Below are positions 30,470 to 64,000 of a stretch of 64,000 nucleotides of DNA, one piece after another. Each line of letters opens with the position of its first letter. Position 1 is the stretch's first letter. The stretch is taken from positions 1 through 64,000 of the forward strand of contig QCQN01000002.1 in NCBI GenBank assembly GCA_003212175.1, given 5' to 3'. The stretch is from Prochlorococcus sp. AG-449-P16 (GTDB lineage Bacteria; Cyanobacteriota; Cyanobacteriia; PCC-6307; Cyanobiaceae). The position numbers and the translations under genes were made by a program. The notes beneath the pieces are model-generated. The model ran no database searches. It was not told where the DNA came from and saw only the letters and a list, made by a program, of their open reading frames with translations.

Positions 30470-31594
<1,125 letters not shown>

Positions 31595-31653
31595 TTACAA
31601 AACTTTTTTGTTTTTTCATTAATCTACTCTATTATTCAATATTGAAGCTATTT

Positions 31654-32426
31654 ATGATCCCATCAACAAACATTTTTTTAGAGATCTCGCAGGCGCTTGG
31701 ATTTTCTATACTACTTTTCCAAAGATACCCTTTATAACTCCTCGCTTTAAAAATATTGCCCAGTTTGCTCCGCCTCTTGGATTTCTTATTGGAATCATTC
31801 AAAGTTTAATATTTATATTATTAAGTACAAATTCTTGGCCCACCTACTCTGCAGTACTAATTTGTCTCGCTTCTGGCTATTTAATTACTGGAGGCTTACA
31901 CCTTGATGGGTTAATGGATACTTTTGATGGTATTTTTGCGGGCAAAAAGAAACTTTTAAAAGCAATGAAAGATAGTAAGGTTGGTGCCTTTGGTGTTCAA
32001 TCTTTAGCATTTATAACCATAGTTCAAATAGCTTGTCTATTTAAAATTCAAAATCAAATATTACTTGTTTTGCCAATGTGCTTATTTTGGGGAAGATTCT
32101 CAAATTTATTTTTAATTGGCAAATTCAAAGAAATTAACTATAAAAGAAAATCTGTTAGTCACAAAAAATTTTGGAATGGATTTAAAAAAGAATCTCTAAT
32201 TTCTATTATTTTTCTAACAATTCTTACAACTTATCTGATATTTTCTATAAATTCTGAGTCGTTATTAATTAAAAATTTATTTCTTCTCGTCATAGGTGCT
32301 TTTATAAGTTATCAGATTCCAAATATCATAGGTAATAAAGTTGGGGGTTTAAATGGAGATGCTTGCGGAGCAAGTGTAGTTCTTGTGGAAACTATAATGT
32401 TATTTATCTATTCAATTCTTCTGTAG
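31654..32426 (+). CDS. cobS: Cobalamin synthase (adenosylcobinamide-GDP ribazoletransferase), start or frame problem
   Basis: Joins adenosylcobinamide-GDP with alpha-ribazole in the membrane, late in B12 synthesis. The track ORF (from 31914) is only the C-terminal two thirds. The same frame is open back to a TAA at 31620 and encodes conserved CobS sequence: FFRDLAGAWIFYTTFPKIP, FKNIAQFAPPLG, YLITGGLHLDGLMDTFDG. No ATG, GTG or TTG occurs in that frame before 31914. An ATG at 31654 is in the +1 frame and would join if the seven-T run at about 31672-31678 had one more T (MIPSTNIFFRDLAGAW). The alternative is an ATT start at 31641 or 31650. The C-terminus (KVGGLNGDACGASVVLVE) is intact. It overlaps the convergent kinase by 23 bases. 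Confidence 0.82.
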
Positions 32427-33540
32427 GAAGTTCTAAATAAAAAATATTGTTCTTTTTAAGAATTTGTATTTCATCAAAATCAATATCTAGAAAGTTTTCT
32501 ATCAAATTTAAGTCCCCTCCTATTTGTTTTGCTAATTTCCTTGCTAAGAAAAGTCCAACTCCCGTCCCCTCTTTTTCCTTAGAAGATGATCCTCTAAAAC
32601 CTTTTTGGAAAATCTTTTCCTTTTCACTATTTGTTATTTTTTCACCATTATCAAAAATACAAAGGCCTTTAGAGGTTAAAACTATACCAATTTCAGCGTC
32701 ATTATCTGCATATTTAAATGCATTTTCTAACAAATTAGCTACGATTTCAGCAATTACTCCATACTTTGATTTGATTTCTTTTAGGGTCCAATCTGGCCAA
32801 TTACAGGGTTGAATCCAATCTCTCTTTTCTAACTTTGCGTTAGCCTTACCCCTCTCTAAAATTGGAGCAAGCAGATTTTGTACCGTAATTATTTTTTCAC
32901 TTTCTAAATAAGGAGGTAACAATAACCTCTCTTCTCCCATATTCAAGGGCAGCTTAATAGGTGAATTAAATTTTTCGAAAGAATCAACATATTGATTAAT
33001 TTGATTTTGTTCTACCATCATGCTTTCAACAATCTCTATTGCATCATTATCTGATCCAAGTCTTTTCATTAATAATTTTGCATAGGTCCTTATTGCAGCG
33101 AGAGGATTTCGCAGTTGATGGATTACGATGCTCACCTGACTTTTTAAATACTTTATTTCTTCATTGCTAGTTTGAAGCTCCATTTCAGTAGAAACACACT
33201 TTGCTAAAGATATTGAGAGAGCTTTCAATCTGGCATCAAGGATCAACGGCCAATTACCATCTTTTAAGTTAGTTTCTACCCTTAGAACGCCAAGTAAAAT
33301 ATCATTTTCCTGTAGTGGATACCATCTTCTACTAGGCTCTGAAACTTTTAATATAGGGTCATCATCAATTGATGATAAAACTCTATCGACTTTTGGCCAC
33401 TGTCCTATCATTTCAAATGTTGCTTTAGATCCATCTTTAGCTGCAGCAAGATATAAGACTAATTGAGTGACACCCATAGAACAACCAAAACTTTCAAGTT
33501 GTTTTAAAATTAATTTTTCAAATTTTTGAGAAATTTTCAT
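32404..33540 (-). CDS. Sensor histidine kinase (possibly Hik2/CSK-like)
   Basis: A 378-residue soluble histidine kinase without visible membrane spans. The N-terminal ~115 residues resemble a GAF-type sensor domain. The dimerisation box is VIHQLRNPLAAIRTYAKLLMKRLG with phosphoacceptor His141. The ATPase domain shows IVANLLENAFKYADND (N box), GLCIFDNGEKI (G1), FQKGFRGSS and GTGVGLFLARKLAKQIGG (G2). The H-box wording and architecture resemble cyanobacterial Hik2 and chloroplast sensor kinase, which respond to photosynthetic redox state; that identification is tentative. No response regulator is adjacent. Confidence 0.85.
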   Translation of the reverse strand: MKISQKFEKLILKQLESFGCSMGVTQLVLYLAAAKDGSKATFEMIGQWPKVDRVLSSIDDDPILKVSEPSRRWYPLQENDILLGVLRVETNLKDGNWPLILDARLKALSISLAKCVSTEMELQTSNEEIKYLKSQVSIVIHQLRNPLAAIRTYAKLLMKRLGSDNDAIEIVESMMVEQNQINQYVDSFEKFNSPIKLPLNMGEERLLLPPYLESEKIITVQNLLAPILERGKANAKLEKRDWIQPCNWPDWTLKEIKSKYGVIAEIVANLLENAFKYADNDAEIGIVLTSKGLCIFDNGEKITNSEKEKIFQKGFRGSSSKEKEGTGVGLFLARKLAKQIGGDLNLIENFLDIDFDEIQILKKNNIFYLELPTEELNR

Positions 33541-63169: not shown

Positions 63170-64000
63170 ATTGAGACAATTTCTAATTCAACAATTAAAA
63201 ATAAGAACTTTCTAACCAATTCCTCTAAGACATTTAATTGGCAGAGGGAGATTAAAAACTATATTGATCCACCAAATTTTTGGAACCCCACATTAGTTCT
63301 CTTCTTTGGTGGTTATTTCTTAGCATTTATAAGTATTTGGCAATGGTATAGGGGAGTTTGGCCTCTCCCATTATTAGTTGCTACTGCTTTTTTAGCTCTA
63401 CATATAGAGGGGACTGTCATACATGATGCATGTCACAAAGCTGCTCACCCTGTACCTTGGATTAATCAAGCTATGGGTCATGGGTCTGCAATATTACTAG
63501 GCTTTAGTTTTCCAGTTTTTACCAGAGTTCATTTACAACACCATATCCATGTGAATGACCCTAAAAAAGATCCTGATCATATTGTTAGCACTTTTGGTCC
63601 AATTTGGCTCATTGCACCAAGATTTTTTTACCATGAAATATTTTTCTTTCAAAAAAAACTCTGGAGAAAATATGAATTACTTCAGTGGGGTATAGAGAGA
63701 TCAATATTTATAACATTGATCTTGGCTGGATTGAAATTTGACTTTATGAATCTTATTTATAATTTATGGTTTGGTCCTGCACTTATGGTAGGGGTAACGC
63801 TTGGCATTTTCTTTGATTATCTACCGCACAGACCATTTCGTTCAAGAAACAAATGGATAAATTCAAGAGTCTATCCAAGCAAATTTATGAATATTCTCAT
63901 AATGGGTCAAAATTACCATTTAATCCATCACCTTTGGCCTTCTATTCCATGGTTTGAATACAAAATTGCTTATGAGAAAACTAAACCTTTACTGGATATG
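63170..64000 (+). CDS. crtR: Beta-carotene hydroxylase, 5' part, non-canonical start
   Basis: Fatty-acid-desaturase-type diiron hydroxylase that makes zeaxanthin. The frame runs off the window end, so it is absent from the ORF track. His boxes are visible: HDACHKAAH, RVHLQHHIHVNDP and GQNYHLIHHLWP, with GHGSAILLGFSFPVFT between. The conserved N-terminus (FNWQREIKNYIDPPNFWNPT) lies in a frame open only from a TAA at 63140 and contains no ATG, GTG or TTG until an ATG at about 63473, after the first His box. An ATT near 63170 is the placed start, by guess. Function is secure; the start is not. Confidence 0.88.
   Translation, partial: METISNSTIKNKNFLTNSSKTFNWQREIKNYIDPPNFWNPTLVLFFGGYFLAFISIWQWYRGVWPLPLLVATAFLALHIEGTVIHDACHKAAHPVPWINQAMGHGSAILLGFSFPVFTRVHLQHHIHVNDPKKDPDHIVSTFGPIWLIAPRFFYHEIFFFQKKLWRKYELLQWGIERSIFITLILAGLKFDFMNLIYNLWFGPALMVGVTLGIFFDYLPHRPFRSRNKWINSRVYPSKFMNILIMGQNYHLIHHLWPSIPWFEYKIAYEKTKPLLDM

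Follow-up and report, generated by a model that had tools for sequence, protein, structure and literature searches.

A probable near-cognate start codon, conserved in the cobS gene of high-light Prochlorococcus

In Escherichia coli, the infC gene, which encodes initiation factor IF3, starts with AUU and is subject to IF3 autocontrol, and in this known case the near-cognate codon lowers expression (Butler, 1987; Brombach and Pon, 1987; both as cited in PMC9845219). Conserved GUG or UUG starts have been described for several genes (PMC5622118), among them psbC of chloroplasts and of Synechocystis (PMC9845219), and start-codon switches are rare (PMC5622118). CUG accounts for about 0.024% of bacterial initiation codons, and its efficiency as a start in E. 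coli is about 0.9% of that of AUG (PMC11497404). Very few bacterial genes have AUC/AUU or CUG as a conserved start. No earlier report of such a start was found for Prochlorococcus or its cobS in the literature searched, which leaves out most subscription journals.

The gene analysed here, cobS, lies in a 64,000-nucleotide stretch of Prochlorococcus DNA, hereafter the window (Table 1). Its reading frame is open from a TAA at 31620 to a stop codon ending at 32426 and contains no ATG, GTG or TTG before the ATG at 31914, in agreement with a preliminary description of this DNA. The Pfam CobS domain (PF02654) matched residues 25–260 of the 267-residue open frame (E 1.2e-39, 137 bits, for a cut-off of 23.2) and profile positions 1–206 of 207, and is thus nearly full-length. 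The cut-off of the NCBIfam equivalog TIGR00317 was not reached (86.4 bits vs 110), but this match was also full-length and the window protein is read as a diverged CobS.

Table 1. Positions of the features discussed (window coordinates, except for the last three lines).
Feature	Position	Strand	Basis or remark
tgt (tRNA-guanine transglycosylase), divergent neighbour of cobS	30470..31588	-	PF01702, E 5.7e-142
In-frame TAA closing the cobS frame upstream	31620..31622	+	
TATTAT, possible -10 box; leader would be about 20 nt	31630..31635	+	TATTAT-like hexamer in relatives; putative promoter function
Out-of-frame ATG, suggested earlier as ancestral start	31654..31656	+	Frame +1 relative to cobS; no counterpart in the relatives displayed
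Proposed AUC start codon of cobS	31662..31664	+	Codon conserved in high-light relatives; predicted initiation
Proposed cobS coding sequence	31662..32426	+	254 aa plus stop, ATC start; Pfam PF02654 and codon-for-codon alignment with relatives
Seven-T run, with T TTT TTA (possible slippery heptamer) at 31674-31680	31673..31679	+	
First canonical in-frame start of cobS, within the conserved HLDGLMD motif	31914..31916	+	
crtR-like hydroxylase (presumed name), running off the window end	63179-64000	+	No ATG/GTG/TTG at its start
Presumed 3-methyladenine DNA glycosylase, genome G022, contig C1	246423-247109	-	Coding upstream of any canonical start, also in the G216 counterpart
Presumed comB, genome G022, contig C1	616182-616943	+	Coding upstream of any canonical start, also in the G216 counterpart
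Presumed metallophosphoesterase, genome G022, contig C1	681546-682388	+	Coding upstream of any canonical start, also in the G216 counterpart

cobS sequences were collected from the genus and the family, which provided 126 distinct upstream regions of other high-light (HL) Prochlorococcus, cultured strains among them (127 with the window). Codons were numbered back from the tryptophan of the LAG[S/A]W motif, the proposed start being codon -12. A conserved canonical start upstream of the CobS N-terminus was absent from the HL genes, including those of the cultured strains MIT 9314, MIT 9107 and MIT 9201. A canonical codon was present upstream of the ATC in only 10 of the 127 sequences, at a position that varied in those displayed, and 36 of the 127, window included, had no ATG, GTG or TTG at all upstream of the conserved tryptophan. 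Judged by comparison of sequences, the missing canonical start of cobS is more than chance, since it recurs across the clade.

Of the 126 other HL regions, 124 carry ATC and two ATT at codon -12, where the window has ATC (31662). By comparison, ATC makes up 6% of the later isoleucine codons of HL cobS (269/4631) and 11% of the isoleucine codons of the window's genes. In all 127 HL sequences, the window included, ATC and the tryptophan are 36 nt apart, and the window sequence (CCC ATC AAC AAA CAT TTT TTT AGA GAT CTC GCA GGC GCT TGG) aligns codon for codon with that of a relative, L004 (CCC ATC AAA CAA CAT TTA ATT AGA AAC CTG GCA GGA GCT TGG). A TAATCTA-like upstream anchor was found in all three frames relative to ATC in the HL set, owing to indels, and two sequences (L061, L051) have an in-frame stop just two and three codons ahead of the ATT/ATC. 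Close relatives dominate the HL sample, which comprises five lineages at 15% divergence; all five have ATC or ATT. Four divergent sequences that were missed by the motif behind these counts (L152–L155) also have ATC at codon -12; in three of them and in L143 (L143, L152, L154, L155), a TTG that lies in frame, three codons ahead of ATC, is a possible alternative start.

Divergence from the window places the coding boundary in the same region. Upstream of ATC the sequence looks unconstrained (pN 0.55, pS 0.56), constraint is weak over codons -11 to -1 (pN 0.32, pS 0.39), and it is clear over the downstream codons 0–71 (pN 0.12, pS 0.61). In conclusion, these computations show that cobS has no conserved canonical start, that codon -12 is conserved and approximately where coding begins. 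The reading that we favour, with a probability of about 0.8, is that cobS is an intact gene that would be translated from the near-cognate AUC at 31662 (or, in a few relatives, from AUU). The preliminary description had listed a non-standard start among its options; this part is supported, the place being the ATC at 31662, which it had not listed, and not an ATT at 31641 or 31650. Counting against initiation at AUC are the weakness of near-cognate starts in E. coli and, in the window genome, the out-of-frame ATG at 31654, which lies 8 nt upstream and would compete for ribosomes.

Standard gene finders would pick either the TTG present at codon -4, in the LAG[S/A]W motif, in most HL genomes (83 of 126 sequences), or the ATG at 31914, as in the window. 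That translation truly starts at these codons, with the upstream sequence untranslated, is unlikely. Codon -4 is also TTT, TTA, CTT, CTC, TTC or CTG, and a position that varies among seven codons does not make TTG a conserved start; the 36 sequences mentioned above have no canonical codon ahead of the tryptophan. Moreover, purifying selection over 31665–31913 is as strong as over the remainder of cobS, and a start at 31914 would cost the protein 84 residues under this selection and roughly one third of its CobS domain. The start might instead be a different near-cognate codon in the vicinity: CTC at -13 directly precedes ATC in 109 of 126 HL sequences, codon -7 is ATA, ATT or ATC in 124 of 126, and the window has an ATT at 31650. 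A start at CTC -13, at ATA/ATT -7 or at this ATT is nevertheless quite improbable, as the window has CCC at -13 and TTT at -7, the region around ATT 31650 corresponds in most relatives to unrelated codons or an in-frame stop, and codon -12 alone is near-cognate in all sequences.

The preliminary description had also suggested that a T was missing from the T-run, the real start being the ATG at 31654 (MIPSTNIFFRDLAGAW). This ATG does lie in the neighbouring frame, +1 relative to cobS, and a seven-T run exists, although at 31673–31679 and not at 31672–31678. A homopolymer error is plausible in an assembly of 46 contigs that is 64% complete, and one added T would let ATG 31654 read into CobS. Loss of a T from an eight-T run by sequencing or assembly error is nonetheless extremely improbable, because the 126 other HL cobS sequences are in register with the window with no extra base needed, and an eighth T would break the constant 36-nt spacing between ATC and the tryptophan. 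The relatives displayed have no counterpart of ATG 31654, nor a conserved canonical start of their own, and comparison of cobS starts, the check proposed earlier, revealed other sequence at the place of the T-run, such as CAT TTA ATT AGA.

Slippage at the T-run, a further explanation offered earlier, would join the short frame of ATG 31654 to cobS by a programmed or leaky -1 shift on T TTT TTA (31674–31680). The heptamer has the classical slippery form, and its phase is right. However, neither ATG 31654 nor the heptamer is conserved in the start regions of the relatives, TTTTTTA is common in the AT-rich window (60 and 70 occurrences on the two strands, 130 in total), and 31620–31740 folds no better than shuffled sequences (z +1.08, pseudoknots lying outside the test), which makes such slippage very improbable.

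As a separate observation, the ATG and T TTT TTA of the window (31654–31680) open a short overlapping frame not seen in the relatives, which could lower cobS expression in this genome.

If translation of cobS starts at AUC 31662, the ordinary initiator tRNA would read this codon with a third-base mismatch, and CobS of the window would begin Met-Asn-Lys-His-Phe-Phe-Arg-Asp-Leu-Ala-Gly-Ala-Trp. A relaxed initiator tRNA was considered and rejected, since in the complete HL genome G022 the anticodon stem of the initiator-type tRNA is normal, with its three G-C pairs. A TATTAT-like hexamer is found 26–36 nt upstream of ATC in 123 of the 127 HL sequences; counted from this box, about 30 nt upstream of ATC, the leader would measure about 20 nt. 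A consensus promoter scan of the cobS upstream region found no promoter. The leader would probably be short, with no Shine-Dalgarno motif and no notable structure. Shine-Dalgarno-like 4-mers are carried by about 11% of HL genes, so that the lack of such a motif before the cobS ATC is ordinary. An Rfam search of 31300–32600 matched neither a cobalamin riboswitch nor another known RNA element. The cyanobacterial di-pyrimidine rule at -2/-1 was also considered: TC, TT or CC precedes ATC in all HL cobS genes, but this was set aside as evidence because only 28% of HL ATG genes follow the rule. The likely effect of such a start would be a low, steady synthesis of the CobS membrane enzyme, and the conservation of a weak start codon across the clade suggests selection for weak initiation.

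In other picocyanobacterial genera, the neighbouring codon -13 of cobS is CTG in 26 of 39 sequences. Where codon -13 encodes leucine in these genera it is CTG in 26 of 34 cases, vs 94 of 1285 leucine codons (7%) elsewhere in the gene (Fisher 6e-22, a nominal value as the sequences are related). AGG or GAGG, which are Shine-Dalgarno-like, often lies about 8–9 nt upstream of this CTG, as in GAGGTTGTAATT-CTG (L168) and AGGAGGAATCAGTT-CTG (L197). Candidate starts nearby in other sister-genus sequences are TTG (L194, L201), ATG (L180) and GTG (L195). In the sister genera the start would thus most often be CUG, one codon earlier than in HL strains, with TTG, ATG or GTG in some. It appears that cobS of this family tends to start weakly and that the HL clade moved to AUC, one codon on.

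To survey other HL genes, the complete HL genomes G022 and G216 were compared over 800 kb of each, about half a genome. This gave 800 reciprocal ORF pairs without overlap, with shadow and rRNA frames among them. Some five more real genes appear to have coding sequence ahead of any canonical start in both genomes; from their sequences we take them to be a crtR-like hydroxylase, a 3-methyladenine DNA glycosylase, comB, a metallophosphoesterase and nadA. The clearest is nadA: HL sequences (L362–L370) read TAA ATC CTG ACC, and this CTG aligns with the ATG of L372 (ATG ACC), so that HL nadA is likely another CTG start. The glycosylase frame of G216 has no ATG, GTG or TTG anywhere. In the crtR-like gene, an ATT at 63179 (ATC in some relatives) is conserved across HL Prochlorococcus.

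The survey hints at a handful more such genes, two of which, cobS and the crtR-like gene, are within the 64-kb window. Gene finders limited to ATG, GTG and TTG shorten cobS or begin it at a spurious TTG, and this in an organism that is among the most abundant in the ocean. It is conceivable, although rather doubtful, that near-cognate starts jointly set the expression of a group of HL Prochlorococcus genes (cobS, nadA, the crtR-like gene, comB and a few others); if so, any change in initiation stringency (through IF3 level or initiator tRNA supply) would shift cofactor and pigment synthesis in concert.

Among known systems, cobS resembles E. coli infC in that its sole usable start would be a conserved near-cognate AUN codon, mismatched at the third base. 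It differs from infC by the codon, AUC and rarely AUU, and by the lack of a Shine-Dalgarno motif; the cobS product is not a translation factor, so that autocontrol of the IF3 type does not follow. The one HL infC start that was read (L209), taken as a control, is ATG. Like genes with conserved GUG or UUG starts, cobS has kept a weaker start codon; gene finders permit GUG and UUG, which are standard in bacteria, but not AUC. The sister-genus cobS orthologues and HL nadA would fit among the rare CUG-initiated bacterial genes, but the cobS CUG stands apart: several genera share it, and AUC has taken its place in the HL clade. With good support from the comparison of sequences, cobS is best read as belonging with the near-cognate starts of the infC AUU type.
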